Source: Lautropia sp.
GTDB taxonomy: Bacteria; Pseudomonadota; Gammaproteobacteria; Burkholderiales; Burkholderiaceae_E
Direction: 5' to 3'
Assembly: GCA_030532895.1 (NCBI GenBank)
Contig: JAUNKF010000022.1
Coordinates: 1-55,072, forward strand
Length of the DNA stretch: 55,072 nt
Part shown: one piece after another, positions 20,078 to 46,521 of the stretch
Layout: the number at the start of each line of letters is the position of its first letter
Position numbering within the stretch: the first letter of the stretch is position 1
Notes under the pieces: model-generated
The model's database searches: none
Seen by the model: the letters and a program-made list of their open reading frames with translations, nothing else
What the model was told of the DNA's origin: nothing
Made by a program: the position numbers and the translations under genes

Positions 20078-20497
20078 ATGAGCAACGACACGCACTTTCC
20101 CTCCCCCAGCATCCTCTCGCATGTGTCGCTAGGCAGCAACCGCATCGAGGAAGCCGTGGCCTTCTATGACAAGGTGTTGGGCGCCATGGGCATTGGTCAA
20201 CTGGTAGATTTGAGGCCGCATGTTCCGGCCGTTGCCTATGGCCGAGCCTACCCGGAGTTCTGGATTCAAACGCCCGGTGATGGCCAACCTGCCCAAACGG
20301 CCAATGGTGTTCACATCGCCTTTTTTGCCGCCAACAAGGAAGAAGTGCATGCCTTCCACGAGGCCGCACTGGCAGCCGGCGCCACCGACGATGGCGCCCC
20401 TGGCCCACGCCCACACTATGGCAAGGAATATTACGGCTGCTTCGTGCGCGATCTGGATGGGCACAAGATCGAGGCGATGGCGTGGTTGCCAGCATGA
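20078..20497 (+). CDS. VOC-superfamily protein (glyoxalase/bleomycin-resistance/dioxygenase fold)
   Basis: The 139-residue protein has the beta-alpha-beta-beta-beta repeats of the VOC fold: ILSHVSLGSNRIEEAVAFYD at the start, FWIQTPGD, VHIAFFAANKEEVHAFHEAA and a C-terminal YYGCFVRDLDGHKIEAMAW. Metal-ligand positions would be the His in LSHVSLG, a mid-protein His and the final Glu. Substrate cannot be told; close relatives are usually annotated only as glyoxalase-like. AAGGAG precedes the ATG. The last 163 bp are duplicated at 30860-31022, on the other side of the siderophore island. Confidence 0.88.
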   Translation: MSNDTHFPSPSILSHVSLGSNRIEEAVAFYDKVLGAMGIGQLVDLRPHVPAVAYGRAYPEFWIQTPGDGQPAQTANGVHIAFFAANKEEVHAFHEAALAAGATDDGAPGPRPHYGKEYYGCFVRDLDGHKIEAMAWLPA

Positions 20498-20593
20498 GGG
20501 AAACCGTCCGCTCGTGATCCGGGCAAGCCCATGCTCATTTCCGCCCGGCCAGCAGCTGCCAATAATCTGGATGCAGGCTGATGTGGTCATGCC
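20335..20593. repeat. Left 259-bp direct repeat bounding the siderophore island
   Basis: Covers the 3' end of the VOC gene, the 37-bp intergenic stretch and the first 59 bp of the (minus-strand) hydrolase gene end. The copy at 30860-31118 is identical over the first 233 bp and differs at three places in the last 26 bp. Both are in the same orientation, 10,525 bp apart. Confidence 0.95.
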
Positions 20594-20596
20594 AAA
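20535..20596 (-). pseudogene. Left-over C-terminus of alpha/beta hydrolase gene
   Basis: Encodes the final residues ISLHPDYWQLLAGRK of the hydrolase whose complete copy is at 31060-31842. Upstream of codon 20 or so the similarity ends and island sequence begins. Confidence 0.85.
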
Positions 20597-20808
20597 CTGG
20601 CTATTCCGATTGATCGTTTCATCTTCAAACTTGAGGCCCTGTGGCTGTCTCAACAGCAGCACGCGAATGAGTTGGTGGTGTGCGCGGTATGCACACTGCC
20701 GTTAGTACCTCAAGATCCATCCATGCGTATCGAACCTCCACGCAGGCTCCTCTTCGCCACGATCCAGACCAGTCCTCAGTCAAGTATAGGCTCTGCATGA
20801 AGGCGCAA

Positions 20809-20826
20809 CGCCCGCGAGGGCGGGCG
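20809..20826 (-). terminator. Possible terminator of the AraC regulator gene
   Basis: CGCCCGC and GCGGGCG form a 7-bp stem with a four-base loop 31 bp after the regulator stop codon. On the minus strand only a weak TTGCGCCTT follows, so intrinsic termination is uncertain. Confidence 0.4.
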
Positions 20827-20856
20827 AGATAAGACGAGGCGTACCACCGCGGTGTC

Positions 20857-21843
20857 CTAGTGTGAGATGCGCGGGCTGATGCCCAGGGAGCATTGCTTGG
20901 GCGTGATGCCGGTGTAGCCGCGGAACATGCGGCTGAAGTGGCTGAGGTTGGCGAAGCCACAGCAGGCGGCGGTTTCGGTGACGCTGGTGCCCCGCTTAAG
21001 CATGGCGACGGCGGCGTTGAGCCGGATGCGCGTCAGGCAGGCATGCACAGGGCAACCGTAGAGAGCCTGGAAGCCTTGCTGCAGGCGCTTTTCGTTCAGG
21101 CCCACGGCATGTGCCAGTGATTGAACAGTCCATTCCTGGCCGTAGTTCTGCTCCAGCAGCGCCCGCGCTTCGATCAGCCGCTGCCGGTCGCCCGGTATGG
21201 GCAGGGGCATGTCGGCCTGTTCTAGGTTTTCCTGCACGAAGCAGGCAATAGCTTCCATGGCCTTGGCGCGCAGGTAGAGGTCGCGGGAAAGGCAGGATCC
21301 GACATGGCTGCATCCGAAGCCGAGCAGGTCGCAGGCCACGCGTTGCAGCGTGCTGGAAGATGGCACAACGCCGAGGAAGGCGTCGATGTGCGACTGGTCA
21401 CCCGACAGCGTCCGGACGCGGCGACGCAGCTCATCCATGTTCATCCCAGTCAGGCTGGCCATGGCGTCCGCTGGCATGTGGATGCTGACCAAGCGGAATG
21501 CACCGTCGCTCTGCCCATCGAGCACGTCCCAGCCGGAGGTGGGTTCACCCGAGGCCATCAGGATGGTGGAGCCAGCACTGACATCCACGACCGCACCGTC
21601 GTCGAAGGCGGTCTGCATATGCCCTTCGAGCAGGATGTTGACACTACAGGCGGCGGAACCAGAGGCCTGGAAGAACCATTTGCCGCCGGGGCGGCCACTG
21701 ATGCAACTGATGTAGAGCCCTTCGCTTGGATGATACATGTGCACGGCGTGCCGCCAATCTTCAGGCACGCCTTCAAGACCATCTTCCTGCAGTTTGCTCG
21801 GATCAAGTGCTTGATCCGAAGCCGGCTCGCTGATCCCCTCCAT
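20857..21843 (-). CDS. AraC-family regulator, YbtA/PchR-like
   Basis: A 328-residue transcription regulator. The C-terminal 100 residues hold two helix-turn-helix motifs: WTVQSLAHAVGLNEKRLQQGF and MFRGYTGITPKQ preceded by SVTETAACCGFANLSHFSR. The N-terminal ligand domain has GKWFFQASGSAACSVNILLEG. The layout is that of siderophore-sensing AraC regulators such as YbtA and PchR, which bind the ferric siderophore and switch on the receptor and transporter genes. It is divergent from the uptake genes with a 193-bp A+T-rich region between them. AGGAT precedes the ATG. Confidence 0.88.
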   Translation of the reverse strand: MEGISEPASDQALDPSKLQEDGLEGVPEDWRHAVHMYHPSEGLYISCISGRPGGKWFFQASGSAACSVNILLEGHMQTAFDDGAVVDVSAGSTILMASGEPTSGWDVLDGQSDGAFRLVSIHMPADAMASLTGMNMDELRRRVRTLSGDQSHIDAFLGVVPSSSTLQRVACDLLGFGCSHVGSCLSRDLYLRAKAMEAIACFVQENLEQADMPLPIPGDRQRLIEARALLEQNYGQEWTVQSLAHAVGLNEKRLQQGFQALYGCPVHACLTRIRLNAAVAMLKRGTSVTETAACCGFANLSHFSRMFRGYTGITPKQCSLGISPRISH

Positions 21844-21908
21844 AAATTTATCCTGAAAACATCAAATTTTTTCCGTAAACCGTTAGCGCAATTTGCCCGA
21901 TTTCCAGA

Positions 21909-21923
21909 TCATAACAGTTCTCA
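21909..21923. promoter_or_regulatory. Candidate Fur box in the divergent promoter region
   Basis: On the minus strand TGAGAAC-T-GTTATGA matches the 7-1-7 Fur consensus TGATAAT-N-ATTATCA at 10 of 14 arm positions. It lies between the AraC gene and the uptake operon, where Fur control would be expected. The match is moderate and is supported mainly by position. Confidence 0.42.
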
Positions 21924-22036
21924 TTGTACATCGGGAATGAACTGCTGAAGCACCTGAAGTGATCATGTGAACTGCAGCGGACCATCAAATAACCATTTGC
22001 CACGACGGCTATTTGAGCCGTGGATTCACCCATCGC

Positions 22037-23314
22037 ATGTCAACGACTTCTTCTGCTTCACGAAGCCTGACGACGGCCCATGTGCTGCTGGCCATTGCCG
22101 GCATTTATGTCAGTCAGACCATCGTCACGGCATTGACCACACAGGCGTTGCCGTCGTTGCTGCGCAGCGAAGGCGCCTCGCTGACGGTGGCAGGGTTGAC
22201 CTCCCTGCTGTGGGTGCCGTGGGGTGTCCGCTTTCTCTGGGCGCCCTGGGTGGAACGCATGCGCCTGCCGACGGGGACGCTTGAGCGCCGCTCGCGCACG
22301 CTGGTGCTGACTGGGCAATGGATGATGGCGACCATCCTGATGGGAATGGGACTGGCAAGCTGGGCCGCCGATGTTTCGCTGGACAGCTTTGCCGTGTGGC
22401 TGTTGGCCGGCCTGCTGCTGGTGGCGGTCGTTTCGGCTAGCACCGATGTCGCGTGCGATGGCTTCACAGTGGAGCAGCTTGCCGGGCAGCGGCGCGGCTG
22501 GGGCAACGTGGCGCAGGTGGGCGGCAACTATGTCGGTGCAATGCTCGGTACCGGGGGCTTCCTTCTGGTAGCGGGCGAAGTGGGCTGGCCTGCGGCACTG
22601 CTGGCCGCGGGCATAGCCATCCTGCTGCTGGGCCTGCCGATGCTGCTGTTGCGCGAACCACCGCGCGACCAGGTGCTGGCCATTAGTCATCGGCCCGGGC
22701 TGCTGCATGCCTTGCGCCGCCCGCAGGTGCGCACGGGGCTGCTGCTGATGCTGCTGTCGAGCGTTGGGATGCGGCTGACGCTAGGTATGTTCGGTCCGTT
22801 CATGCTGGATCGCGGCATGAGCCTAGAGCAGGTGGGCTGGTTGTTCGGGTCGATGCATATCGGCGCAGGGTTGACCGGCGCGGTGCTGGGCGGGCTGCTG
22901 GTGCGGACCGCGTCGGGCTGGCGGGCGGTATGGATCGCCGCCGGACTCAAGGCCGGTGTGCTGCTGGCCTTGACGCTGGCAGCGCCAACGGCCTCGTTGA
23001 CGGTTCTGACGATTCTGCTCGGCCTGACCTTCACGGTCTTGAGCTGTCTCTGGGTCTCGCTGTATTCGGCACTGATGAACCTGACCTCACCACTGCAGGC
23101 GGGCCTGGACTTCACGGTGTTCCAGAGCGCTGACGCGCTGCTGGCCATGGCGGGCGGCGTGGCAGGCGGCTGGCTGGCCAGCCACCTGGGTTACTCCTTC
23201 TGCTTCGGGCTGGCCAGCATGCTGACAATCATCGCTACCGGGGCCGTTTGGCGCCAGGCGCGTATCGAGAAGAACACCTCAGTAGCCACGCAAGGAGCAA
23301 TGCATGCGGGATAA
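22037..23314 (+). CDS. MFS siderophore permease, RhtX/FptX-like
   Basis: About 425 residues and 12 hydrophobic segments. The start, with TTAHVLLAIAGIYVSQTIVT, ALTTQALPSLLR and LWVPWGVRFLWAPWVERM, and the internal DVACDGFTVEQLAGQRRGWG are typical of the single-protein siderophore permeases FptX (ferripyochelin) and RhtX (rhizobactin), which are related to AmpG. It would carry the ferric siderophore or a breakdown product across the inner membrane. The ATG at 22037 is preferred over a TTG at 22013; neither has a clear ribosome site. Its 3' end overlaps the next gene by 11 bp. Confidence 0.87.
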   Translation: MSTTSSASRSLTTAHVLLAIAGIYVSQTIVTALTTQALPSLLRSEGASLTVAGLTSLLWVPWGVRFLWAPWVERMRLPTGTLERRSRTLVLTGQWMMATILMGMGLASWAADVSLDSFAVWLLAGLLLVAVVSASTDVACDGFTVEQLAGQRRGWGNVAQVGGNYVGAMLGTGGFLLVAGEVGWPAALLAAGIAILLLGLPMLLLREPPRDQVLAISHRPGLLHALRRPQVRTGLLLMLLSSVGMRLTLGMFGPFMLDRGMSLEQVGWLFGSMHIGAGLTGAVLGGLLVRTASGWRAVWIAAGLKAGVLLALTLAAPTASLTVLTILLGLTFTVLSCLWVSLYSALMNLTSPLQAGLDFTVFQSADALLAMAGGVAGGWLASHLGYSFCFGLASMLTIIATGAVWRQARIEKNTSVATQGAMHAG

Positions 23315-25076
23315 GGAACGCGCCGGGACTGGTGCCAGTATCTGGGGCATCATGCGGCCCGTACAGGGCCAGATCCGCTTTGCCATGGTGCTGGCCAGCC
23401 TGGCCGCTGCCTCTGCCCTGGGAGCGCTGGCCGTGCTGGCCTTGGCAGTGCACACCCTGCTGTCTGAGCCCGGTCAGTGGCCCTGGCTGCCGCTGGGGGT
23501 GGCTGTGCTGCTCACCATTCTGGCCTTTGTCTTGCGCCTATCGGCCTTCAACCAGTCGCACTACGCCGCCTTCCGCCTGGAAACCCGGCTGCGCACCGAT
23601 CTAGCCGGGCATCTGGCGCGCGTGCCACTGGGCTATGTGCAGCAGACCGGCTCCGGTGCGCTGACCAAAGTGATAATGGACGACGTGAAAGCGCTGCACG
23701 TGTTCGTGGCCGACAGCACGCCGCTGTACGCGCGGGCGTATGTGTCGCCGGTGCTAACCTTCGTGCTGCTGTGGTGGCTGGACTGGCGCCTAGCGCTGGC
23801 CGCGACGGCTGTGTTGGCGGTTGGCATGGTGGTGGTGTCGCTGGCCACGCGCGGCAGCAGTCAGATGATGCAGCGTTATCACGCGACTGGCGAGAACGTG
23901 AGCAAGGCGGTCATCGAGTATGTGCAGGCGATGCCGGTAGTGCGCACTTTCGATACCGGCGCGGTCACGTTCCAGCGCTACCAGCGTGCGCTCGATGAAT
24001 TCATGGCGGTAATGCTGGCGTGGTATCGAATGGCTGGATTTTCCTCGCGCCTCTCAGTGGCGATCCTCAATCCGATGCCGACGCTGGCAGTGCTGGTATG
24101 GCTGGGCGGCTGGCTGATCAGCCGTGAGGCGCTGGACGCGGCCACCTGGCTGGCCGTGCTGTTGGTAGGCACCGGCATGGCCGAATCGCTTCTGCCGTTG
24201 ATGTCGCTCAAGCATCTGGTGGCCAAGACGCAGATGAGCATTCACCGCATCCAGGAGGTGATGGACGAGCCGGAGCTACCCGAGCCGGATATGGTCCAGG
24301 CCAAGTTTCCCAAGGATGCCAGTGTACGTTTCGAGGCGGTTGATTTTCGCTACACGGCAGACGGCGAGCTGGTATTGCAGGACGTGAGCTTTGATGTGCC
24401 GCCAGGCAGTGTAACGGCGCTGGTGGGGCCGTCCGGTGCGGGCAAGACCACGGTGGCGCGGCTGATCTCGCGCTTCTGGGACGTGAGTTCCGGCTGTATT
24501 CGAGTGGGCGGCGTGGATGTGCGCGAGATGCTGTCTGAGGTCTTGATGCAGCAGTTGGCTTTCGTGTTCCAGGACACGTTTCTGTTTACCGACACTATTG
24601 CGGGCAATATCCGCCAGGGGCTGGCCTCTGCAACAATGGATGAGGTGATCGCCGCCGCGCGCGCCGCCCAGGCGCACGAGTTCATCGAGCGGCTACCACA
24701 GGGTTACGACACGCCAGTCGGCGAACGAGGAGTGTTCCTCTCCGGTGGGCAGCGCCAGCGCATAACCATCGCCCGCGCCATCCTGCAGAACCGCCCCATC
24801 CTGGTGCTGGATGAGGCTACGGCCTTTGCCGACCCGGAGAACGAAGCCGCGCTGGTGGCGGCACTTTCCAACCTGATGCGGGGCAAGACCGTGCTGATGA
24901 TTGCGCACCGGCTCTCCACGATTCGCGATGCGGATCAGATCCTGGTGTTCGACCAGGGACGGCTGGCTGAGCGTGGCCGGCACGATGCCTTGTTGGCGCA
25001 GCGCGGCGTGTATGCGCGGCTGTGGAGCAGCTATGAGCAGGCGCAGGACTGGGCATTGATGGGAGCACTGGCATGA
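23304..25076 (+). CDS. ABC transporter, fused permease/ATPase, YbtP/IrtA-like (first half-transporter)
   Basis: A 590-residue type IV ABC half-transporter: six transmembrane helices in residues 20-320, then an ATPase domain with Walker A GPSGAGKTT (about 374-382), signature LSGGQRQR (about 478) and Walker B ILVLDEATAFADPENE (about 498). Together with the next protein it resembles the YbtP/YbtQ and IrtA/IrtB heterodimers, which have exporter architecture but import iron-siderophores. AAGGAG precedes the ATG. It overlaps the permease gene by 11 bp and the next gene by four bases (ATGA), so all are one operon. Confidence 0.92.
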   Translation: MRDKERAGTGASIWGIMRPVQGQIRFAMVLASLAAASALGALAVLALAVHTLLSEPGQWPWLPLGVAVLLTILAFVLRLSAFNQSHYAAFRLETRLRTDLAGHLARVPLGYVQQTGSGALTKVIMDDVKALHVFVADSTPLYARAYVSPVLTFVLLWWLDWRLALAATAVLAVGMVVVSLATRGSSQMMQRYHATGENVSKAVIEYVQAMPVVRTFDTGAVTFQRYQRALDEFMAVMLAWYRMAGFSSRLSVAILNPMPTLAVLVWLGGWLISREALDAATWLAVLLVGTGMAESLLPLMSLKHLVAKTQMSIHRIQEVMDEPELPEPDMVQAKFPKDASVRFEAVDFRYTADGELVLQDVSFDVPPGSVTALVGPSGAGKTTVARLISRFWDVSSGCIRVGGVDVREMLSEVLMQQLAFVFQDTFLFTDTIAGNIRQGLASATMDEVIAAARAAQAHEFIERLPQGYDTPVGERGVFLSGGQRQRITIARAILQNRPILVLDEATAFADPENEAALVAALSNLMRGKTVLMIAHRLSTIRDADQILVFDQGRLAERGRHDALLAQRGVYARLWSSYEQAQDWALMGALA

Positions 25077-26854
25077 GCATTGCAGATCCCGGCCAGCAGA
25101 TTACGCCCCTGCGCGAGACGTGGCGACAACTGATGACCAGTGCCCGTAGCCGCGCGCCCAGGCTACGCGCCAGCCTGTTTGGCCTGACCCTGGCCGCCAT
25201 CGCGCAAGGGCTGGCACTGGCCTGCCTGATGCCGCTCTTCCAGGCCCTGATACCGCGCGCCAGTTGGCGGGCGGCGCTGCCCTGGCTGCTGGCGATGACA
25301 GGGCTGATGCTGGCCAGCACGATCATCCGCTGGTGGGCACAGGGCTTCGACTATCGCGGCGACATGGTGCGCAACACGCATGAGCTGCGTTCTGAGCTGG
25401 GCGCACAGTTGCGCCGCATTCCGCTGGAGGTGCTGCAGGACAAGCGCGCCGGTGGGGTCAATGCGACCTTGCTGGGGAACGTGGACGAGACGCTCAGCTA
25501 CATCCTCACGATCGCCAACATGATGGCCACCGCCCTGCTGACGCCGCTGACGGTGGCACTGGCAGCGCTGTGGTTCGATTGGCGCATGGGGCTCGTTCTG
25601 ATACTGGTGTTCCCGCTGTTGATTCCCCTCTACCGCTGGCGGCGCCCCGCCTACGGACGTGGCATGCGCATGCTAGCCAACGCCCATGAGCGCACCAGTG
25701 CGGACATCCTCGAATACGTCCAGGGCCTACCGATGCTGCGCGCGACCTGCTGCACAGGCGAAAAGGCGCAGCGCCTGCAGGCCAGCTTCGTGCACCTGGA
25801 AAAAATCCAGACCATCGGCCAACACAAAGGCGCCAAGCCGAACCTGATCCTAGCGACGGTGATGGAGTTGGCGATCCTGCTGGTAGTATTCCTGGGAGTT
25901 TGGTTCGTCACGCAGGACTCGCTGGACATCGCCGTGCTGGTTGCGTTGATGGTGATCGTCATGCGTTTCAGTGAGCCACTGGCAACGTTCGTGCTGTTTT
26001 CCAAGGTGATCGACCTGATCGAGGCGGCACTGAGCAAGATCGAGGCCTTGCTGGCCATCAAGCCTCTGCCGCAGCAGGCATCGACAGGTACGCCGGACGA
26101 GTTCTCGATCAGCTTCATTGGCGTGGAGTTCGCCTACGCCGGACAGCCGCAGAGCACATTGAAAGACTTCAGCGCCCAATTGCCCGCCCGCCGGATGAGC
26201 GCGCTGGTGGGACCGTCGGGGTCTGGCAAGACCACGGTGACGCGGCTGCTGATGCGGCACGCGGACCCCCAGGCGGGGCAAGTGCTAATGGGCGGCGTGG
26301 ACATCCGCACCCTGTCGCCGGAGCAACTCAATGGCTTGATATCGGTGGTGTTCCAGGACGTGTACCTGTTCGACGACACCATCCTGGCCAACATCCGCAT
26401 GGCCCGGCCGCAAGCCAGCGACGAGGAGGTGGAAGCCGCTGCTCGTCTCGCCTGCTGCCACGAGTTCATTACTCGCCTGCCCGAGGGCTACCGGACACGG
26501 GTAGGTGACATCGGCGGCAGCCTCTCAGGCGGCGAACGCCAGCGCATCAGCATCGCCCGCGCCATGCTCAAGAACGCGCCCGTTGTCGTCCTCGACGAGC
26601 CTACCGCGGCGCTGGACACCGAAAGCGAAGTGGCCGTGCAGCGTGCCATCGACGCCCTGGTGCGCGAGCGCACGGTGATCGTGATTGCGCATCGGCTGTC
26701 GACCATTGCCGGCGCCGACCAGATTCTGGTGATCGACGAAGGCCACGTGATCGAGGCAGGTCGGCACGCCGAGCTGCTGGCCGGTAATGGTCGCTATGCG
26801 CGGATGTGGCAGGCCCAGCAGAGCGCCAAGCGTTGGCGCGTGGGAGAGTCATGA
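25073..26854 (+). CDS. ABC transporter, fused permease/ATPase, YbtQ/IrtB-like (second half-transporter)
   Basis: A 593-residue partner of the preceding protein with the same layout: membrane domain, Walker A GPSGSGKTT (about 379), signature LSGGERQR (about 483) and Walker B VVVLDEPTAALDTESE (about 503). The H-loop is IVIAHRLSTIAGADQILV. The two ATPase cores differ enough to indicate a heterodimer, not a recent duplication. Start and upstream stop share ATGA. The gap of 119 bp to the receptor gene contains no clear terminator, so the receptor is probably co-transcribed. Confidence 0.92.
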   Translation: MSIADPGQQITPLRETWRQLMTSARSRAPRLRASLFGLTLAAIAQGLALACLMPLFQALIPRASWRAALPWLLAMTGLMLASTIIRWWAQGFDYRGDMVRNTHELRSELGAQLRRIPLEVLQDKRAGGVNATLLGNVDETLSYILTIANMMATALLTPLTVALAALWFDWRMGLVLILVFPLLIPLYRWRRPAYGRGMRMLANAHERTSADILEYVQGLPMLRATCCTGEKAQRLQASFVHLEKIQTIGQHKGAKPNLILATVMELAILLVVFLGVWFVTQDSLDIAVLVALMVIVMRFSEPLATFVLFSKVIDLIEAALSKIEALLAIKPLPQQASTGTPDEFSISFIGVEFAYAGQPQSTLKDFSAQLPARRMSALVGPSGSGKTTVTRLLMRHADPQAGQVLMGGVDIRTLSPEQLNGLISVVFQDVYLFDDTILANIRMARPQASDEEVEAAARLACCHEFITRLPEGYRTRVGDIGGSLSGGERQRISIARAMLKNAPVVVLDEPTAALDTESEVAVQRAIDALVRERTVIVIAHRLSTIAGADQILVIDEGHVIEAGRHAELLAGNGRYARMWQAQQSAKRWRVGES

Positions 26855-26973
26855 TGGATCGAGGATCGTGGATCAGCTGGCAAACCAGATGCCATTCTCG
26901 CCGATGCACCAGCATGTAATGGTTGTTTGCTGTACCACCTGTCGTTCCAAGAAACAAGGAGAAATCTTTCATT

Positions 26974-29079
26974 ATGCGTTTTCAACTCCGTGCCCTAAAC
27001 ATTGCGCTGCTTTCCTTCCATGCCACGTCATGGGTGCATGATGCCTGCGCACAAAGCGTACCAAGTGCAGACGATGAGCCGGCCGTTCTCACCACCGTGG
27101 TCGTTTCGGCCAGTAAGCGCGGTCAAACCCTGGAACGGCTCAATAGCTCTGCCAGCGTGGCCGACCCTCCAACGCTTGATGACGCCCAGGTAACTTCGAC
27201 CCTGGAACTGAATCGCGTTTTCCCCGAGCTGTACACCTCGCACAGCGCGACATTCCTGTTCCCGATCATCACGCTGCGCGGCGTGACGTCGGCGCAGGAT
27301 TTCTACAACCCGGCACTGACCGTGTATGTGGATGGTGTGCCGCAGTTGCCAACTTTTGCCGCCCAGTCCCTGCTGGGCGTCGAGCAAGTGGAATTGCTCA
27401 AGGGACCGCAAGGCACGCTGTATGGCAAGAGTGCCCAGGGCGGCGTGCTCAATATCGTCTCTCGCAAGCCGGGCAACACCCCCGACTTCGCTGCCCGCAC
27501 CGGGGTGGCGAGCCGAGACGGCTACCAGTTGCAGGTCGAGGGATCGGGCCCTCTGCTCAAGGATCTGCTTTATGGCTCGATCTCTCTGCTTGACAATGAT
27601 GTCAATGGCGACTTACGCAGCGATATCATCGGCAGCGATCAGTTGGGAGGCGTTCGTTCGCGCGCCGGCAATGTCGAGCTGCGCCTGGCCCCAGCCAGCA
27701 GTCCATGGGAGGTGGGGCTGCGCGCCGGCCGCGATTGCGCCACGGGAGATCAGGAAGCCTATACGCTGTTCGACGACTACAAGTCCCGAACAGCCTATGT
27801 GCTGCCCAACCTGCCGGAAGCCTACCGTGATTTTCACCAGCGACGCTGCGCCAACAGCGTCGCCATCAATGGTCAGTATGACTTCAGCATCTGGCGCTTG
27901 AACGCCATTGCCAGCAGCCAGCGGGTGCACACAGAACGCCAGTGGCCGCTGGACGCGTATTTCCCTCAGTTCTCCGAGCATTGGAAACAGAATACCCAGG
28001 AATTGCGCCTGTCGACACGTTCTCCGCAACAGGGTGAGGAACCTTCCCGCGCCTGGGACGCGGTGTTCGGCCTCTACCGGCAAGGGGTGGACATGTCGCG
28101 CGGCTACCAGTTCGATATGGTGCTTCCCAGTTTTAATCGGGTGACCGACTCTTCTTCCAGCAACCGCATCGAGTCGCTGGCGGCCTATGGCGACGTGACT
28201 TGGCACCTGAGCTCCAAGACCGACATCACCACGGGTCTGCGCATCACCCGAGACAAGGCCAGAACCCGCTTCCAGGGCGACATGATGGGCAGTACCTTCC
28301 AGGGGCAAGCATCCAGCGACCAGACGACGTGGCTTGGCCATTTGGCCGCAGGGCACCAGTTCAACCCCAATTGGCGCGGCTACGTCAATGTGGCGCAAGG
28401 TTACAAGCCGCTGGGCTACAATCTTGCGCCATCGAGCATGGACGATGCCGCCGGGTATGGCCGCGAACGCTCGATAAGCTACGAGGCAGGTATGCGCTAT
28501 GCCGGAAGCGACATGCGCGCCAGCATCGCCCTCTACCGGGTGGACAGCAAGGACGTGCAGCTCTACGGTGATGGCGACACGGGGAACCAGACGCTGAGAA
28601 ACGTAGGTGATACCCGCTCGGTGGGTGTGGAGTTCAACACTGAGAGGGATCTCACCCGGCAATGGACACTCAGCGCGGGAGGCTTCATCAATGACGCGAC
28701 CTTCCGTCGCTTCGAGGATTCCATCGCCTGCACCGGCTGCGCGCACAACGATGTGCCGATGACGCCGAAGTATGGCCTGACGCTGGGTGTCAAGGGCAAT
28801 GTACCTGTGGGCCACACCGTCTTGCGGCCACAGTTGACGGTGCGCCGCACGGGGGCGCATTACTTCGATAGCGCCAATACCCTGCGCCAGGGAACGTACA
28901 CCGTAGTGGATGCGGGCTTTGGTTGGCGGCCAACCCGCAATCTGGAATTGATGCTCTACGCGCAGAACCTGACGGATCAGGATTATCGTACCTATGGCTT
29001 CTCCTATGGTGCCACGGGCAACTTCGCACAGATTGCATCGGGCCGGACAATAGGCGTGACAGCGACCTATCTGTACTGA
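26974..29079 (+). CDS. TonB-dependent outer-membrane siderophore receptor, FyuA-like
   Basis: Imports ferric siderophore across the outer membrane. From the ATG at 26974 (after AAGGAGA, 11 bases away) there are 701 residues: signal peptide ending DACAQS, a TonB-box-like LTTVVVSA, a plug domain with ITLRGVTSAQDFYNPALTVY, YVDGVPQLP and GPQGTLYGKSAQGGVLNIVS, and a beta-barrel ending in an aromatic TATYLY. Size and plug sequence resemble FyuA, the yersiniabactin/pesticin receptor (673 residues), more than hydroxamate receptors. With the YbtPQ-like ABC pair and AraC regulator this suggests a phenolate-thiazoline-type ligand; that is inference. Confidence 0.92.
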   Translation: MRFQLRALNIALLSFHATSWVHDACAQSVPSADDEPAVLTTVVVSASKRGQTLERLNSSASVADPPTLDDAQVTSTLELNRVFPELYTSHSATFLFPIITLRGVTSAQDFYNPALTVYVDGVPQLPTFAAQSLLGVEQVELLKGPQGTLYGKSAQGGVLNIVSRKPGNTPDFAARTGVASRDGYQLQVEGSGPLLKDLLYGSISLLDNDVNGDLRSDIIGSDQLGGVRSRAGNVELRLAPASSPWEVGLRAGRDCATGDQEAYTLFDDYKSRTAYVLPNLPEAYRDFHQRRCANSVAINGQYDFSIWRLNAIASSQRVHTERQWPLDAYFPQFSEHWKQNTQELRLSTRSPQQGEEPSRAWDAVFGLYRQGVDMSRGYQFDMVLPSFNRVTDSSSSNRIESLAAYGDVTWHLSSKTDITTGLRITRDKARTRFQGDMMGSTFQGQASSDQTTWLGHLAAGHQFNPNWRGYVNVAQGYKPLGYNLAPSSMDDAAGYGRERSISYEAGMRYAGSDMRASIALYRVDSKDVQLYGDGDTGNQTLRNVGDTRSVGVEFNTERDLTRQWTLSAGGFINDATFRRFEDSIACTGCAHNDVPMTPKYGLTLGVKGNVPVGHTVLRPQLTVRRTGAHYFDSANTLRQGTYTVVDAGFGWRPTRNLELMLYAQNLTDQDYRTYGFSYGATGNFAQIASGRTIGVTATYLY

Positions 29080-29374
29080 AGTCACCATGAGAAACAAGTT
29101 GATACGGCAAGACAATGGACGCTCCATGAATTGCACGCAAACCCTCGGCCATATCAAAACGGTGAGGCTCGGGAGACCTTGCCGATGCCACACGGCATGG
29201 TTCCCACGAAGCGGAAGGCGCACTTGTACGAGCGCTGACCACCCTGACTGCTGGTCTGGTAGTCGTCTTCTTCGTGTCACTGACGCTTGTGTTGTTGCTA
29301 TTGACAATAACGGAACCCATAGGCTGACTATGTAGCCCTCTTCATCCAGCTTGGTGACGTGGAGACAAAACTAG
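29080..29374. other. Gap between receptor gene and second MFS gene
   Basis: No clear gene. In the frame running from about 29170 to a stop at about 29333, the translation contains VVVFFVSLTLVLLLLTI, which looks like one membrane helix; no convincing start codon precedes it. It may be a remnant or a small membrane protein. GGAGAC at 29361-29366 is the ribosome site of the next gene. Confidence 0.35.
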
Positions 29375-30646
29375 ATGACTCAAGACAATGCAAGCTCAGT
29401 GACAGTCGGCGGCGAGCACCTGGTTAGCGCGGCCCGCTTCAACATCAAGCCGCTGATGGCGGTCTACATGACCTGCACCATGGCCATGATGGCATTCGTC
29501 TCTCTGATCGGCCCAATCGCACGATCGCTGCGCTTGGCCCCCTGGCAGGCCGGCGCGGTGGTCACCGTGGGAGGCGTGTTGTGGATGCTGTTGTCGCGGC
29601 CCTGGGGAGCGTTGAGTGATCGGCGTGGGCGGCGAACGGTTCTCCTGGCGGGGGTGGGCGGCTTCATGCTCGCCTACTGGGCCATGTGTGCCCTGCTGAT
29701 CGTATCGTTGCGGGTACTGCCTTCGGCGGGTCTGGTGTTTGCCGGGCTGCTCGTCAGCCGCGGGGCGGTCGGTGCATTCTTCTCCGCAATCCCGGCGGCG
29801 GGCCAGGCGTTGGTGGCCGATCACGTCGCTCCAGGTGAGCGCGCCGGCGCCATGGCCTCACTTGGCGCAGCCAATGGCGTTGGATTGGTCGTAGGGCCGG
29901 CAATCGCTGCCGCACTGGTCCAGTATGGCCTGGATTTGCCGCTCTACGTGACGGCCGCATTGCCCTTGCTGGCGATCGGCATCCTTTGGCACCAGCTACC
30001 GCGCAATGAGCGGATATCCGACACAGCTTCGGCTGCTTTGGGCCTGGGCGATGCACGGCTGCGCCGACCAATGATCGTCGCCTTCGCCGCCATGTTCAGT
30101 GTCGCGATCGGTCAGATCACAGTGGGGTTCTTTGCCATCGATCAACTACAGTTGAAGCCTGAACCAGCCGCCCGAGCCTCAAGCCTGGCATTGACCTTGG
30201 TCGGGGTTGGCCTGATCGTCGCCCAGTTGATCGTGCACAAGCTGCACTGGTCACCACAACGGCTGATCCGTATCGGCGCCCTGGTCAGTGCGGCTGGCTT
30301 CGGTGCGGTTTCTCTGGTGTCGACGCAATGGGCATTGATGGCGTGCTTCTTCTTTGCTGCCGCCGGAATGGGCTGGGTCTTTCCGGCCTTCTCGGCAATG
30401 GCCGCCAATGCGGTGCAGCCGCATGAACAGGGCGCAGCCGCTGGGTCCGTGGGTGCGGCCCAAGGGCTGGGGATCGTGCTGGGGCCGCTGGCGGGCAGTT
30501 TGCTATACGAGCTAGGCCCTGGAATCCCTTATCTGCTGGTCGGCACGCTATTGGTGCTGGTGGCACTGTGGACATCAGAGATGTGCCCCACGGAAGTGAC
30601 GCCATGGAATACTAGCGACCAGCCTGGGTATTCCGATCGATTGTGA
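29375..30646 (+). CDS. MFS transporter at the end of the siderophore cluster
   Basis: A 423-residue, 12-helix MFS protein with the loop-2/3 motif GALSDRRGRR and the segment SRGAVGAFFSAIPAAGQALVAD, resembling drug-efflux-type members. In position it matches ybtX of the Yersinia high-pathogenicity island, whose role is accessory. Export of apo-siderophore or recycling is possible but not shown. The final residues (after about 408) are encoded by sequence that belongs to an IS-end-like repeat at 30624-30693, so the natural C-terminus may have been replaced by the junction. Confidence 0.85.
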   Translation: MTQDNASSVTVGGEHLVSAARFNIKPLMAVYMTCTMAMMAFVSLIGPIARSLRLAPWQAGAVVTVGGVLWMLLSRPWGALSDRRGRRTVLLAGVGGFMLAYWAMCALLIVSLRVLPSAGLVFAGLLVSRGAVGAFFSAIPAAGQALVADHVAPGERAGAMASLGAANGVGLVVGPAIAAALVQYGLDLPLYVTAALPLLAIGILWHQLPRNERISDTASAALGLGDARLRRPMIVAFAAMFSVAIGQITVGFFAIDQLQLKPEPAARASSLALTLVGVGLIVAQLIVHKLHWSPQRLIRIGALVSAAGFGAVSLVSTQWALMACFFFAAAGMGWVFPAFSAMAANAVQPHEQGAAAGSVGAAQGLGIVLGPLAGSLLYELGPGIPYLLVGTLLVLVALWTSEMCPTEVTPWNTSDQPGYSDRL

Positions 30647-30693
30647 CCGCCGAGTCCGGTATCGTGACCGCACAGTCCGCTCATCGTGACCGG
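30624..30693. repeat. Iterated TCCG-N-GTGACCG motif, resembling an IS21-family element end
   Basis: Three units of about 20 bp follow each other: TTCCGATCGATTGTGACCGC (30631-30650), AGTCCGGTATCGTGACCGC (30653-30671) and AGTCCGCTCATCGTGACCGG (30674-30693). Multiple short terminal repeats of this kind are characteristic of IS21-family ends; the family is assigned from memory of that pattern. CTGGGTATTCCGATCGAT (30624-30641) has a 16/18 match at 20597-20614, directly inside the left boundary of the island. No transposase gene is present. Confidence 0.45.
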
Positions 30694-30854
30694 GGAGAGA
30701 CTGCGCGCCAAGGATTATACGAGCCGGGCATAGGCAATCAAGCATTTTGCTTTGGGAGGCGCGGCACAAACTCAGTTTTTGATGGCGGGTGTCTGCTCAA
30801 CATCGGTCTTGGCAGCACGCAAGGATTGCCTTGAGCACAATCCGAATCAAGCTG

Positions 30855-31022
30855 GCCACCAAGGAAGAAGTGCATGCCTTCCACGAGGCCGCACTGGCAG
30901 CCGGCGCCACCGACGATGGCGCCCCTGGCCCACGCCCACACTATGGCAAGGAATATTACGGCTGCTTCGTGCGCGATCTGGATGGGCACAAGATCGAGGC
31001 GATGGCGTGGTTGCCAGCATGA
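30855..31022 (+). pseudogene. Left-over C-terminus of the VOC gene
   Basis: Repeats the last 54 codons of the VOC gene at 20078-20497, starting with KEEVHAFHEAALAAGATDDG. The first two thirds are missing; upstream in frame is unrelated island-end sequence. Confidence 0.9.
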
Positions 31023-31118
31023 GGGAAACCGTCCGCTCGTGATCCGGGCAAGCCCATGCTCATTTCCGCCCGGCCAGCAGCTGCCAATAATCGGGATGCA
31101 GGCTGATGTCGTTATGCC
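30860..31118. repeat. Right 259-bp direct repeat bounding the siderophore island
   Basis: Second copy of 20335-20593 (233 bp identical, then three mismatches). Beyond 31118 the sequence continues as the intact hydrolase gene, whereas the left copy continues into island DNA; before 30855 the reverse holds. Confidence 0.95.
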
Positions 31119-31842
31119 CAACGCCTGGCAACAACACCATGCGGGCAATGCCGGGCGCAAAGGCATTCAGCAAGGCTGTGGCGTGGTCGGGCGGAATGAT
31201 GTTGTCTTCAGCCGCAGCCACCATCAGTGTGGGTGCAGACACCTTCGGCGCCATCTCAACCGACATATAACGGTCTTTCAATAGCCAGGAAACGGGCATC
31301 AAGAAAAATGCCCGCTGCACCACGGACAGAACACTGTCATAGGGCGTGACCAGCACCAGACGATGAACGGTTCTCTGGGCAGCCAGTTGCACGGCAATCC
31401 CGCTACCCAGGCTTCGACCGATGACGGTGACGCTGGCATGCCGTTTGCCCACTTCATCAAACCATTGAATGGCATCCGCCACCAGCGCCGCTTCCGTCGG
31501 CGAGCCGGCGCTCCCTCCCCAGCCCCGATAGTGCAGCGCGTAAATGTCGTGACCAGGAAAAGCGCGGGCCAGCGCCGGCACACTGGCCGCGGTATCTTCG
31601 GCATTTCCGCCCAGATACAGCACCACACTTTCAGCGGGTGATGTCTCGCTGCCCGGCCAGACGGTGACATGAACCGGGCCAGCTGGTGTGAGAAGGCTGC
31701 TGAGTTTCGTACCGGGCACCGGCATGCGCGGCTGGGGGTGATACAGCAAGTCTCGCTGCATCATGAAGAGCCAGGCGCATAGGCCCAGATAGAACAGTAG
31801 GACGAGGCCCAGTCCGACAGCAAATACCGTTTTCATGCGCAT
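31060..31842 (-). CDS. Membrane-anchored alpha/beta hydrolase (BEM46/ABHD13-like)
   Basis: A 260-residue serine hydrolase. Residues 5-27 form an N-terminal membrane anchor. The catalytic triad is visible as the nucleophile elbow GRSLGSG, the aspartate in AAAEDNIIPPDH and the histidine in PGVGHNDIS. The oxyanion region is YLGGNAED and RGWGGSAGSPTE follows. Such proteins act as esterases or thioesterases of unknown substrate. The gene is convergent with the VOC gene in the inferred ancestral arrangement, and lies 12 bp downstream of the YkvI-like gene, probably in one transcript. Confidence 0.88.
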   Translation of the reverse strand: MRMKTVFAVGLGLVLLFYLGLCAWLFMMQRDLLYHPQPRMPVPGTKLSSLLTPAGPVHVTVWPGSETSPAESVVLYLGGNAEDTAASVPALARAFPGHDIYALHYRGWGGSAGSPTEAALVADAIQWFDEVGKRHASVTVIGRSLGSGIAVQLAAQRTVHRLVLVTPYDSVLSVVQRAFFLMPVSWLLKDRYMSVEMAPKVSAPTLMVAAAEDNIIPPDHATALLNAFAPGIARMVLLPGVGHNDISLHPDYWQLLAGRK

Positions 31843-31854
31843 TGAACATCCTGT

Positions 31855-32692
31855 TTACCGAACATCACGCCGGATACGCCACCACGCCACCAACGTGCAA
31901 GCCATCAGTACAAAACCGAGATAGCCAAAAAACGGATAGACCGTACCGACCAATGCGATGAATCCGACAAAGCTGAGTAAGAAAGCAGCAACGCCACTCA
32001 GCAACACACCTATCCGGAAACGCCGAACACTGCCAGAGAACAGACGGGCCGAGAATGAATACAACATGCCTACAGCCGTGTTCAGGATCATGGCAAAAAT
32101 GACCAGACCCATCAATCCGCCGACCCAAGGGGAAAGCATTGAGGCCAATTTCAACATCGGCAGATCAACCCCGCCCAACTGATCAACCTGGGCAAACATG
32201 CCACCAGCTATCACCAGCATCAACAGGCCCAACAATAATCCGCCCAAGATACCGCCCCACCACGCTGATGGCAATCACCTGGCGCACGTCGAGGCAGACG
32301 ATCAAAATGGTGGCCACCATCGTAAACACGCTACCCACAACCGAGGTAGGCCAGACAATTGCTCCAGCAAGGCACCAGCCCCCGAGAACATCACCACCAC
32401 GATTGCGAACATGAAGAAGGTGATCATCAGGTCGATAGCCCTGCCCAGATATCGCCCCCCCCATCAACTGGATGACTTCCTTGTGGGAACCCCCGCCACA
32501 ATGCTTACTCAGGGACGACAGGGCCATCGACAGAAAGACGAACAGCGCACTGCTGATCACTGCCCCCACCAATCCATTGATGCCGAAGCTCGTGAAGAAC
32601 CGCATGATTTCCTGCCCCGAAGCAAAACCCGCTCCCACGATGACACCAACAAAAGCGCCACCGATCTGCACTGCCTCCTTGAGGTGTTTCAT
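31855..32692 (-). pseudogene. YkvI-like membrane protein (APC-type transporter fold), multiple frameshifts
   Basis: The start (after AGGAGA) reads AVQIGGAFVGVIVGAGFASG, GQEIMRFFTSFGINGLVG and KEVIQLMGG. Then a run of eight G (plus-strand C at 32455-32462) puts the frame out by one; the expected RYLGRAIDLMITFFMFAIVV continues in the next frame up to about 32335. The first frame resumes with GSVFTMVATILIVCLDVRQV, and from about 32270 the third frame gives GGILGGLLLGLLMLVIAGGM to a stop at 31855. At least three shifts are needed, so no full-length protein of the usual 340-350 residues is made. Confidence 0.78.
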
Positions 32693-34309: not shown

Positions 34310-36056
<1,747 letters not shown>

Positions 36057-42743: not shown

Positions 42744-43243
42744 GTCCCGTATCTCGATCTGGCGCTAAAGAACGCATCCATGAAGGATGTCATCCGCCGA
42801 AAGAAGTAACACCGACAGTCAGGCGCGTAGCCGTCGAGCATCTGCAAACGGTGCATGCTCTGTCTGCTCGTCGCGCCTGTAGGATCGTGGGTATCTCGCG
42901 GTCGGTGCTGCACAGACACACCAAGGATTGGTCAGCAGCGGATGCGCCAGTGATCGAGGTGCTCAATGCCACCATGACCCGACATGGCCGATGGGGGTTC
43001 TGAAAGTGCTTTCATCGGCTGCGTGCTGATGGATACCACTGGAACCACAAGCGCGTTCACCGGGTGTATCGCAACATGAAGCTGAATCTTGCGCGCAGAG
43101 CCAAGAAACGTCTGCCCGTTCGTGAACCTCAATCCCTGAGCGCACTACCCGTCCTGAACCGGGTCTGGGCGCTGGATTTCATGCGGGACACGCTCTACGA
43201 TGGGCGGCCATTCAGAACCCTCAATGTCATCGACGAGGGCGGT
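42744..43243 (+). mobile_element. IS3-family transposase remnant (orfA end and orfB start)
   Basis: The orfA tail DLALKNASMKDVIRRKK ends at 42807-42809. The orfB frame continues with RRVAVEHLQTVHALSARRAC and RIVGISRSVLHRHTKDW to a TGA at 43001-43003 in place of the Trp expected in RWGFWKCFHRLR. It then goes on in the same frame through NLARRAKKRLPVREPQSL and LNRVWALDFMRDTLYDGRP until NVIDEG at about 43243, where it breaks off inside the DDE domain. Both ends are missing. Confidence 0.82.
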
Positions 43244-43440
43244 GCATCACTGCACCAGCGCTCCAGGGTGGGCACGCTCACGCCCAACTCGACAGACAGG
43301 GTCTGCAAGGGTGTGCTCTCTGGCGGGAGCATTCTCGCCACCGCCTGTTCTTTGAACTTCTGGCCATATCGTGCCATCGGCTTTCCTCGTCATCTCGCCC
43401 CCTTATGATGGATCCTATCGGGGCGGCAACTAGTCTGACA
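43243..43440 (-). mobile_element. Second IS3-family remnant: left end with start of orfA
   Basis: On the minus strand an IS end TGTCAGACTAGTTGCCGCCC begins at 43440 and is followed by an orfA start (43377) reading MARYGQKFKEQAVARM and TLSVELGVSVPTLERWCSDA before it is cut at about 43243, where the other IS remnant starts on the opposite strand. The two IS3 pieces are thus joined head to head at an internal break. Confidence 0.75.
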
Positions 43441-43599
43441 CAGAGGGAAGTCATCCGTGGCCATCAGGCGTCTCCATTTCTCCCAGTTTTTGATGCCCAG
43501 ATTTTAGTTTCTGGGCGTTTCCCCTGTCTCTGCTGACCCTTCGATTGGCTATCCATGCGGATCTTCGGGGTTTTTCAGGGGCAACTACTGAGAGCAAGC

Positions 43600-44922
43600 C
43601 TAATTCTTAAGGGAAATGTGCCAATGATGCAGGTGCTGGCCAATGAATTTGATGTTTTCAGATATGCTCTCCCATTCCTTGAGCGTTTCACTTGAGGTTA
43701 TCCCCCCAGGAATGGGAATTTGTTTGCCAGATGGGAACTGTGAGCGTAGTAATGCTTTTTTCATCCACTTATCACCTGCGTAAATGACTCTGGCGTTGGC
43801 TGATTCTTTCTCCAATAATGCTCTATTATCTTCTATCCATTTTATGATGACATCCAGGTTTTTTGAACTTTTGAGTTTCTTGACATAAACATCATTCTCG
43901 GCTTCCTTCAATGCTCTCAAAATATGGGCGCCGTGACTGATCCCGCCCATGCTGTCAGAGAATTTACCTTTCCCGTCAGCATATCTCAGGTCTAGCTGTG
44001 CCCCATCACTGTGTCCGGCATGTGATAGGACAGACCTGCCGTTGCTATTCTGTGCAATATGGCCTACCGAGATGTCATTGAACCTATACTCGTTTTCTTC
44101 AAGCCATTTCAATGTTTTCCATGTGGCCCATGAGTCACCTCCTTCGTCTGTCTGGCCCTGTCCGTATCTTCTTGTGCTGTCAAAAATTGTTCCAGCGAAA
44201 AATAGTGGGGTGAAATCGGTCTCTGATGATTCTGAAATGCTCACTGGAAATCTTGGGCTGATCTGATCGGCGCCGTTTACTTCGGCACGTAGTTCCACAT
44301 ATAAATCGATTTTTCCATTGAATTCCCTTTCAATTAAATCCTCTGGGATAGAAAAGTTTTTGAATATTATTGTTCCGTTTTTTATGATGTCTATTTGATT
44401 TAGGACATTTGCTTCAACCTCGCCAAAGCTCCCGGTTGCAATGAGTTTTAGTTCTTTGAGTTTCGCGTCTTGGGGCTTGTAATTCACTGTCAATGGAAAG
44501 CCCCAGGCGTTGGGGGCTCCTGGTCGGGGAATTCCAATATACGCACCTGAATAATTTGGCCGTCCTTCAATCGAGTGTTTCACGGGTTTCAGAACTTTAT
44601 AACCTATTTTGTTGGTCGTGTTCAGGCTTGCTTTGGAGATTTCCAGGAGGTCGTTACAGCCACTTGTTATTGAGTAGCCGACTGAAATGGCGTCACCTTT
44701 GTCATTGGAGGCGCCGACTTTTACTCGAAAGTTGTATGGAGAGTTCTTTGTCAATTCTGAAACATGAATGCATCCTTCCTTGAAAATAATTCCGCCCCTT
44801 TTATAGGCCGACAAGCTGGTTCCTTGCCTTTCAATATTTTTGGGAAGTCCCGTGACGGAATAATTCCATTCGTCATAAATTTGACCGCTTCCAGTCCGCC
44901 ACTTATAAGCGATAACAGCCAT
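43600..44922 (-). CDS. LAS/M15-M74-type metallopeptidase-like protein, A+T-rich gene
   Basis: Not identified by name. From the ATG at 44922 (440 residues), the C-terminal part carries a zinc-site pattern HxxGxxxD at H304-D311 (GHSDGAQLDLRY) and, at the very end, HLHHWHISLKN, like the last zinc ligand of MepA/LAS peptidases (HHxHxxL). The N-terminal part (1-100) looks like a beta-sandwich domain with cysteines at EGCIHV and SGCNDL. No signal peptide is present, which is odd for a wall hydrolase. The ATG stands two bases after the stop codon of the upstream lipoprotein gene: either coupled translation or a frameshift in one long gene. Base composition is clearly richer in A+T than the flanks. 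Confidence 0.6.
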   Translation of the reverse strand: MAVIAYKWRTGSGQIYDEWNYSVTGLPKNIERQGTSLSAYKRGGIIFKEGCIHVSELTKNSPYNFRVKVGASNDKGDAISVGYSITSGCNDLLEISKASLNTTNKIGYKVLKPVKHSIEGRPNYSGAYIGIPRPGAPNAWGFPLTVNYKPQDAKLKELKLIATGSFGEVEANVLNQIDIIKNGTIIFKNFSIPEDLIEREFNGKIDLYVELRAEVNGADQISPRFPVSISESSETDFTPLFFAGTIFDSTRRYGQGQTDEGGDSWATWKTLKWLEENEYRFNDISVGHIAQNSNGRSVLSHAGHSDGAQLDLRYADGKGKFSDSMGGISHGAHILRALKEAENDVYVKKLKSSKNLDVIIKWIEDNRALLEKESANARVIYAGDKWMKKALLRSQFPSGKQIPIPGGITSSETLKEWESISENIKFIGQHLHHWHISLKN

Positions 44923-44924
44923 TT

Positions 44925-46271
44925 CTAACGATATCGATGTACACCTTGCGGGATTGTCATAGTGCCCTCGCATGAGTTGTTAGGGGCTTGAAGTCTGGGA
45001 GAGGATGAAATTCCGAAGCTGTAGTTTTTGGCGCCTTCTGGGAATATTGAGTAACAGCCTTCGCCTATGAGCTCTCCGGTTACAAGACTTTCAAGATTTG
45101 ATGTCTTGGGGTCCAGGCTGTTTATTTTTTGGCCAGACTTTTGATTATCTATGGTATTTTTATAGCTCTTATTGGTTTGAGCGGCGTATGCTTCGGACCA
45201 ATATTCAAGGTCAACTGAAACATGCCTTGAATTTCTTTTGATTGAAACAAAAGTTTTGGTAAATCCAGGTGCACTGGTATCCAGTAGCTCGATTGTATAA
45301 GTACCTGCGGGGAGTCCATTAAGGCCGAATCGGCCTTCGTTGTCGATCACGGTAACGGCGCGTGTGCCATTGGCGCCCTGGCCTCTGATGGCGACCTTTC
45401 TGCCTGAGAGATGGCGGATAGGGGCTCCGGTTCGGGTGTCTAGCACTCTGCCCTCAAGATTTGCTGTTGGCACGTTGGCGATGAACGCCCATGTTCTTGT
45501 GAAGTCGCTATCTTCATCATCACCGTTGAATGTGATGGAAAAGTCGATGTCGCCTTCAGGCAGTCTTTCAAGAATGTTTTCGAGGGCTTCTCGGGAAAGC
45601 ATGAATCCGGAAGCTGTTTGAAGTGGCTTCCAGAGTCTTCTTAAGAAGATGAAGCCATTCTGATTCACATTGAGCAGTGCATTGGAAGCTAATGCGTCCA
45701 GCTTGATCTTTCGTCCGATTTCAAAGACGAGATCTTCGCCAATAATCTCGTTCGATGGTCCTAGGCCTTTTACGATGAGGGGAATGGGCTCTCTGTCCGT
45801 GTCTAGCTCATCGAACTCTGTCGTCTCTTCGATGCCTGTTGGTCTTGAGGTTGCGACGATGATGTTCAGAGATCGCTTGATGCCGTTGCCATCGAAAAGC
45901 AGCTTGATTTTTCCGTTCCTGCCGGGGTCAGCCGGGGTGATGAAGCGAAAATCCCCGCGGTCCACGATCAGATCTTCGACGAGATCGGCTCCTTCGGCAA
46001 CGCGGATATGGTTTGCATCGATCCCTTCCACGGAGAACATCTGCTGGCTTAAGTTGACTACCTGGGCGTAACTGACCGTGATGGGCTGATTGTTGGGGGG
46101 CCACAAATCTGTGTCTTCCTCCGAGTCGTGTTCGGGTGATGGGTCGGTGATGCTCGTCGTGTCGTTCAGGAGGTTGTGGTTTTGTTCGCTGTAGCCTCCC
46201 CCGCATCCAGCGACGGATAGCAGTGTATAGAGTGCCAGCATAATGTGCTTCATACTTATTCCAGCTTTCAT
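44925..46271 (-). CDS. Lipoprotein with carboxypeptidase-regulatory-like domain, A+T-rich gene
   Basis: A 448-residue protein with a lipoprotein signal ending SVAGC (Cys23), followed by GGG and an acidic linker. Residues about 271-335 form a CarboxypepD_reg-like beta-sandwich (NLEGRVLDTRTGAPI, VIDNEGRFGLNGLPAGTYTI). Before it are repeat-like beta domains including IVDRGDFRFITPADPGRNGK. The ATG at 46271 follows AAAGG; an ATG at 46253 is also possible. The end overlaps or nearly meets the metallopeptidase-like gene. Probably an outer-membrane or surface protein of foreign origin, judging by composition. Confidence 0.68.
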   Translation of the reverse strand: MKAGISMKHIMLALYTLLSVAGCGGGYSEQNHNLLNDTTSITDPSPEHDSEEDTDLWPPNNQPITVSYAQVVNLSQQMFSVEGIDANHIRVAEGADLVEDLIVDRGDFRFITPADPGRNGKIKLLFDGNGIKRSLNIIVATSRPTGIEETTEFDELDTDREPIPLIVKGLGPSNEIIGEDLVFEIGRKIKLDALASNALLNVNQNGFIFLRRLWKPLQTASGFMLSREALENILERLPEGDIDFSITFNGDDEDSDFTRTWAFIANVPTANLEGRVLDTRTGAPIRHLSGRKVAIRGQGANGTRAVTVIDNEGRFGLNGLPAGTYTIELLDTSAPGFTKTFVSIKRNSRHVSVDLEYWSEAYAAQTNKSYKNTIDNQKSGQKINSLDPKTSNLESLVTGELIGEGCYSIFPEGAKNYSFGISSSPRLQAPNNSCEGTMTIPQGVHRYR

Positions 46272-46521
46272 GGTCTACCTTTGCTTTGAGTTCTTCTGAT
46301 AAGAATATAGATGCCCTCTGTCCTTGCGCGAGGCAGGAAGCTCCCTGAGACATGTTGTCTGAAGGGCACACTAGGCCGGAGTGGGCAGTGTGTGCCAGAA
46401 CGCACTGACAGAATGCCGGTGCAGCCCGTCAGGCGTAAGGTAAGCCTCCAGGACTGTGGTGGTCTAATCTGATCGGACACCCAGATAAGCCCAGCCAGCT
46501 CCCAACCCAGGAGCCAGCCTC

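Follow-up and report, generated by a model that had tools for sequence, protein, structure and literature searches.

The genes ybtA, ybtP, ybtQ, ybtX and fyuA are the yersiniabactin uptake genes of the Yersinia high-pathogenicity island. Conjugation experiments with Escherichia coli have described how foreign DNA enters a chromosome at a homologous locus: PCR indicated a duplication of this locus in 56 of 60 selected clones, and 14 duplications that were sequenced had lengths of 109-950 bp, which the authors attributed to circular molecules integrating by a single crossover (PMC3240628). Homology-facilitated illegitimate recombination (HFIR) has been proposed for the module arrays of the Vibrio cholerae type VI secretion system (T6SS; PMC5361080). 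The window analysed here comprises 55,072 nucleotides and is the complete contig C40 of an assembly that comprises 3.64 Mb and 74 contigs, the host of which is taken as a Lautropia-like betaproteobacterium. It contains a six-gene cassette that, judged by its sequence, resembles the uptake half of the yersiniabactin system and that is placed between a VOC/glyoxalase-superfamily gene and an alpha/beta hydrolase gene. The cassette was probably acquired at the VOC-hydrolase locus by insertion-duplication, which would be an event of an ordinary kind. The insertion history is read from this one genome, and the island-free loci used for comparison are those of congeners.

The island is bounded by a repeat of 233 identical base pairs in direct orientation (20335..20567 and 30860..31092, both on the plus strand), whose copies are 10,525 bp apart from start to start. 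In an extended register (20330-20597 and 30855-31122) 263 of 268 positions are identical, and the copies differ at 20334, 20568, 20585, 20588 and 20594, so that the tail of the left copy (20568..20597, plus strand) is unlike the right copy in four of its 30 bases. The sequence-only reading had given the repeat as 259 bp with three mismatches, which is correct and spans 20335-20593. By formula, not by shuffles, the longest repeat expected by chance in 55 kb of such composition is about 16 bp. Only two families of direct repeats of at least 60 bp are present in the window, the other one being a 71%-identical stretch of two ATP-binding cassette (ABC) genes, and across the whole genome assembly the repeat has two matches, both at this locus. 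It runs from the last 163 bp of the VOC gene across the space between the genes into the final codons of the hydrolase gene. The intact VOC gene (20078..20497, plus strand, 139 aa; Pfam Glyoxalase PF00903, E 5.6e-11) is the left neighbour of the island and its final 163 bp are present again at 30860-31022, while the intact hydrolase gene (31060..31842, minus strand, 260 aa) is the right neighbour and its final codons are present again at 20535-20597. Each of the two genes thus has one intact and one truncated copy, as noted before. Both ends of the island carry direct copies of resident sequence, and both neighbours are intact on their own sides, which is the arrangement left by a single crossover. 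A target-site duplication of a transposon was rejected, in agreement with the sequence-only reading, because 233 exact base pairs far exceed the known lengths of target duplications, which for IS21 are a few bases. Zero differences in 233 bp set a 95% upper bound of 1.3% on the divergence of the copies. This allows the recent event that had been suggested but favours it weakly, as conversion between the copies could also keep them identical. We also considered the left hydrolase fragment as the remainder of an old, diverged copy, based on a weak match with stops at 20538-20681 (E 1.6e-5). This was dropped because 97 of 500 shuffles aligned to the hydrolase equally well or better than the sequence from 20601 onward.

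The earlier description of the segment as an acquired siderophore-uptake island is supported, and family and structure searches (Pfam, NCBIfam, solved structures) identify siderophore-uptake genes in it. The gene order is AraC regulator, RhtX/FptX-like major facilitator superfamily (MFS) transporter, YbtP-like and YbtQ-like ABC subunits, FyuA-like receptor, and a second MFS transporter. The AraC-family regulator (20857..21843, minus strand) was assigned by family searches and is YbtA-like by its position. All other genes are on the plus strand. The YbtX-like MFS siderophore transporter (22013..23314) matches the RhtX/FptX model TIGR02718 with E 9.4e-49, its 166 bits lying below the curated cut-off of 356. 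The YbtP-like subunit (23304..25076) has its best solved match in 6p6i_A (E 1.9e-209), the chain that is paired with YbtQ, and the YbtQ-like subunit (25073..26854) in 6p6i_B (E 3.5e-201) and in YbtQ 8vsi_B. The two proteins of the importer pair best match the two chains of 6p6i. For the FyuA-like TonB-dependent receptor (26923..29079) the best solved match is the pesticin receptor 4epa_A (E 1.7e-152, residues 57-713). The second MFS transporter (29375..30646) has its last residues and its TGA stop within the IS21-type end described below. Condensation-domain (PF00668) matches number four in the genome and none on the contig of the window, and from this gene content the genome is likely uptake-only for a Ybt-like siderophore. 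The four condensation domains, which belong to nonribosomal peptide synthetases, are located on contigs C4, C17 and C50, two of them less than 1 kb from a contig end.

The closest relative found is the cassette of Azoarcus taiwanensis NSC3 (locus L015), which has six of six genes, with their order and orientation unchanged. DNA identity to it defines a cassette core of 9.8 kb (20802..30616), with 88.8% over 20802-26866 and 90.3% over 26956-30616, and the protein identities are 86-95%. Beyond the cassette the Azoarcus locus contains an open reading frame (ORF) of 252 aa without family match, and then a gene for a MobH relaxase, whose start is 831 bp beyond the aligned core. This relaxase is also matched by the PFGI-1-class relaxase model of integrative and conjugative elements (ICEs), and TraG_N comes next, together with two further proteins of such elements. 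Partial matches to this flank are present in eight plasmid records, four of which cover half or more of it. The 89-90% identity of the core to an ICE-adjacent cassette and the IS21-type sequence at both inner borders are new here with respect to the sequence-only reading. With tblastn at E 1e-3, the window has no match to any of seven proteins from the Azoarcus flank (MobH, TraG_N, TIGR03755, TIGR03756/TraU, and three without family), a result that covers the window only, unrelated relaxases beyond the scanned proteins and the rest of the genome not having been sought. At the DNA level the flanks of the Azoarcus cassette match the window over only 28 bp near the AraC promoter. These 28 bp (21860-21887), which lie before the start of the AraC gene, are inverted in the Azoarcus locus (3563-3590, 93%), where they lie left of the aligned core, and are perhaps a regulator site.

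A wider search with the receptor resulted in 46 loci in genome contigs. The AraC-RhtX-YbtP-YbtQ-FyuA order and orientation are kept in 13 of these (at least 50% coverage), and the second MFS transporter is also present (at least 50% coverage) in two of the 46, the Azoarcus locus and L018. Condensation-domain matches were found in 10 of 13 genomes examined, including that of Azoarcus taiwanensis. One of eight congeners (G002) has a related receptor, with 75% DNA identity, adjoined by YbtP, YbtQ and AraC genes. Viral contigs contain one relative of YbtQ at 34% identity (L130), and no relative was found when they were scanned with the receptor and with the hydrolase. Compared with plasmids in near mode, the whole island gave a single 45-bp match.

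Both inner borders of the island carry IS21-type sequence. Directly after the left repeat stands GGCTATTCCGATTGATCGT, a terminal tip of the IS21 family of 19 bp (20599..20617, plus strand). Positions 20597-20617 are identical in 20 of 21 bases to an IS21-type end in the congener G006 (E 0.001), and the tip is without the GTGACC motif that comes next in full ends. The congener G001 has a full IS21 whose istB-side end is matched at 89% identity by an IS21-family end at the right border (30623..30692, plus strand). This right end has a length of about 70-105 bp, with weaker similarity continuing to about 30730. The frame of the second MFS gene enters this right tip and uses its TGA, and the C-terminus of the protein is unlike that of its Azoarcus counterpart. 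In plasmids, two matches to the right border adjoin istA/istB and three others examined do not. An assignment of the right border to IS66 had also been considered, based on what adjoins one plasmid match, and this was dropped because of the two matches adjoining istA/istB and the IstB gene of the G001 element. Twelve distinct tips, including one located on a different contig of the genome analysed here, were used to build a position weight matrix (PWM) of 13 positions. Over both strands of the 55 kb the matrix ranks 30626(+) first with 19.9 bits, 20599(+) second with 14.8 bits, and 14090(+) third with 13.6 bits, so that the left tip, as a match to the matrix, leads the third site by little. 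The two tips share one orientation. An inverted tip at the right joint had seemed likely by eye and was rejected, the best PWM site there ranking 1114th of 55,060 sites on its strand.

The G001 element is 2.6 kb long and encodes IstB as well as a transposase (rve just below the cut-off, Mu-transpos_C_2 above it). Four near-full-length copies of it are present in G001, besides incomplete copies and isolated ends (51 matches in all, several of them co-located). Elsewhere in its own genome the right border has one short match, a lone IS21-type end on contig C54, and integrase-core matches number seven, not sorted by family. Between tip and core on the left lies a filler (20618..20801) that has no match beyond the locus in its own genome, 73 other genomes of the family, plasmids and phages. 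The filler on the right (30731..30859) is joined to the right repeat within VOC sequence, and the two fillers align to each other no better than shuffles (102 of 500). Farther downstream, a transposase remnant is present at 46522-47722, which we take to be IS3-like; its HTH_Tnp_1, HTH_21 and rve_3 pieces are in separate ORFs, and one of the two rve matches contains a TGA. The region at 43000-46300 has a low GC content (about 47-48%) and, on the minus strand, two long ORFs, of which one has a CarboxypepD_reg domain and the other no Pfam match.

The locus was compared across nine genomes of the genus, its own counted, and thus with eight congeners (G001-G008), each species being represented by one genome. 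DNA matches to the VOC gene are present in five of the eight (G001, G003, G004, G006 and G007). G002, G005 and G008 have no VOC match, the genome of G005 being 81% complete. G006 and G004 have the VOC gene between homologues of the window flanks, and the island is absent. The sequence-only reading had called for an empty VOC-hydrolase locus in relatives; an island-free VOC locus is indeed found in these two species, but an intact VOC-hydrolase pair is not. Homology to the window restarts at 34310 in G004 and at 31841 in G006, in the latter 76 bp after the VOC match ends. This 76-bp gap includes a possible remnant of the hydrolase C-terminus, HPDYW in the hydrolase frame (tblastn E 0.03, a weak match), located after the VOC gene at positions 1917-1993 of locus L004. 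If this weak candidate were true, the VOC-hydrolase pair would predate the island. In G001, G003 and G007, matches longer than 80 bp are limited to the VOC gene and its fragment (14.0, 9.6 and 15.0 kb compared). The hydrolase itself has only weak protein matches in the eight congeners, in G005 (35%) and G006 (32%), and no close relative. When 30855-31855 was compared with 121 genomes, 12 matched, and outside its own genome all matches longer than 40 bp are in the VOC part.

By the mechanism that we regard as probable, the incoming DNA would have contained a VOC-hydrolase junction of about 233-263 bp already joined to the IS21-type tip and the cassette, and it would have been circular or recircularised. 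One RecA-type crossover between this stretch and the VOC-hydrolase locus, presumed to have been resident before, would give the product VOC-stretch-insert-stretch-hydrolase, with the stretch on both sides, one intact VOC gene, and one intact hydrolase gene. The joint between the right filler and the VOC sequence might be either the joint that closed the circle or an illegitimate joint. The reverse event is predicted to release a 10,525-bp circle and to restore one VOC-hydrolase locus. Integration of a circle by a single crossover, as proposed in the sequence-only reading, has exactly the topology seen as well as published precedent, while the circle and the crossover themselves are what we infer from them. 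Several observations weigh against it. In none of the other genomes among the 121 searched was an intact VOC-hydrolase pair without the island found, and the cassette proteins scanned have no match to a replication, relaxase or integrase family. The third-position GC content does not distinguish the cassette from its surroundings (0.72-0.83 in the cassette genes and 0.61-0.84 in five flanking genes), and the fillers at 20618-20801 and 30731-30859 are unaccounted for. In addition, a foreign circle needs 233 bp identical between donor and recipient, yet the adjoining 30 bp differ at four places. Such clustering has P = 1.7e-4 if differences are uniform over 263 bp, with 20334 left out and the differences counted after the fact, and it fits one-sided homology slightly better.

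In a one-sided homologous recombination, a linear DNA would have been anchored by VOC/hydrolase homology on the left and connected by an illegitimate joint on the right, at VOC position 20335, in an HFIR-like process or by a template switch. With the illegitimate joint upstream of the crossover the stretch would become duplicated. The final 30 bp of the left copy hold four of the five differences, which is what a tail from the donor and two 233-bp stretches from the recipient would produce. The right joint is also sharp: past one mismatch, no more than GCCA matches. HFIR, however, is reported generally to delete recipient DNA, and in E. coli it accounted for four of 60 clones, all with deletions, versus the 56 that were duplication-positive (PMC3240628). 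We thus regard one-sided recombination as unlikely, though worth keeping in view. The circle is ranked first because the published bias favours it, although the clustering of the differences slightly favours one-sided homology.

The IS21-type tips in the same orientation at both inner borders, and the four near-full-length IS21 copies in G001, of which the one scanned has an IstB gene, could also suggest that the cassette came in by a cointegrate or as a composite element. Direct-orientation IS21 copies in the hydrolase gene would later have decayed to their ends, and the long repeat would be a separate event. However, the outer repeat has 233 exact base pairs instead of the few bases of an IS21 target duplication, the PWM scan shows no inverted tip at the right joint, and two IS21 copies with istA/istB were not found at the borders, which have end sequences only (19 bp and about 70-105 bp). 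Of the G001 element, the genome itself has no fragment longer than 70 bp (four matches at three places; other IS21 subfamilies were not sought). It is hard to assign IS21 the leading role on this basis, and we consider it improbable. Even a little less credible is an assembly fault by which the repeat copies were misjoined, for example from merged strains or from a separate molecule with cassette and repeat. An exact repeat of 233 bp exceeds the usual k-mers and the assembly is in many contigs, but the edges of the two copies are not alike and lead into distinct unique flanks, and a join within the repeat would not explain the IS21-type tips at both borders. Insertion-duplication remains the reading that we prefer. 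To extend it to a reversible siderophore-piracy module, which would be lost as a 10.5-kb circle and regained at any VOC-hydrolase locus, after solo IS21 ends had helped to lift an ICE-type cassette from its conjugative element into a chromosomal locus that retains no ICE gene, is highly speculative.

Compared with the Yersinia high-pathogenicity island (ybtA, ybtP, ybtQ, ybtX and fyuA), the cassette shares the receptor, the ABC pair, and the AraC regulator, and it has a candidate RhtX/FptX-type MFS transporter, whose match is below the curated cut-off. Unlike that island, it has no condensation-domain gene on its contig (none of the four PF00668 matches of the genome), no tRNA gene is found in the window, no integrase family is among the matches of the cassette proteins scanned, and a second MFS gene is added. 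The cassette of Azoarcus taiwanensis NSC3 has the same six genes, order and orientation; unlike the one in the window, it has a MobH relaxase gene at a distance of 831 bp, with ICE proteins encoded after it. A Ybt-type cassette in a Lautropia-like organism is thereby linked to an ICE-adjacent one, which may bear on how uptake systems spread apart from siderophore synthesis, and the ICE-linked relative together with the IS21-marked borders adds a modest further interest.

With respect to the recombination, a one-sided homologous anchor likewise adds a foreign module in the proposal for the T6SS arrays of Vibrio cholerae, where the resident part is moved downstream (PMC5361080). Unlike in those arrays, the resident segment is duplicated here and not displaced, and the illegitimate joint is putative. 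The E. coli experiments differ in that the natural event is inferred here from one genome, with a 9.8-kb core and IS21-type tips at the borders. Their single-crossover products consist of an insert flanked by direct homologous copies, of 109-950 bp there and 233 bp here (PMC3240628). With a useful trait gained and neither neighbouring gene broken, the locus is a clear natural candidate for the insertion-duplication seen in these experiments.

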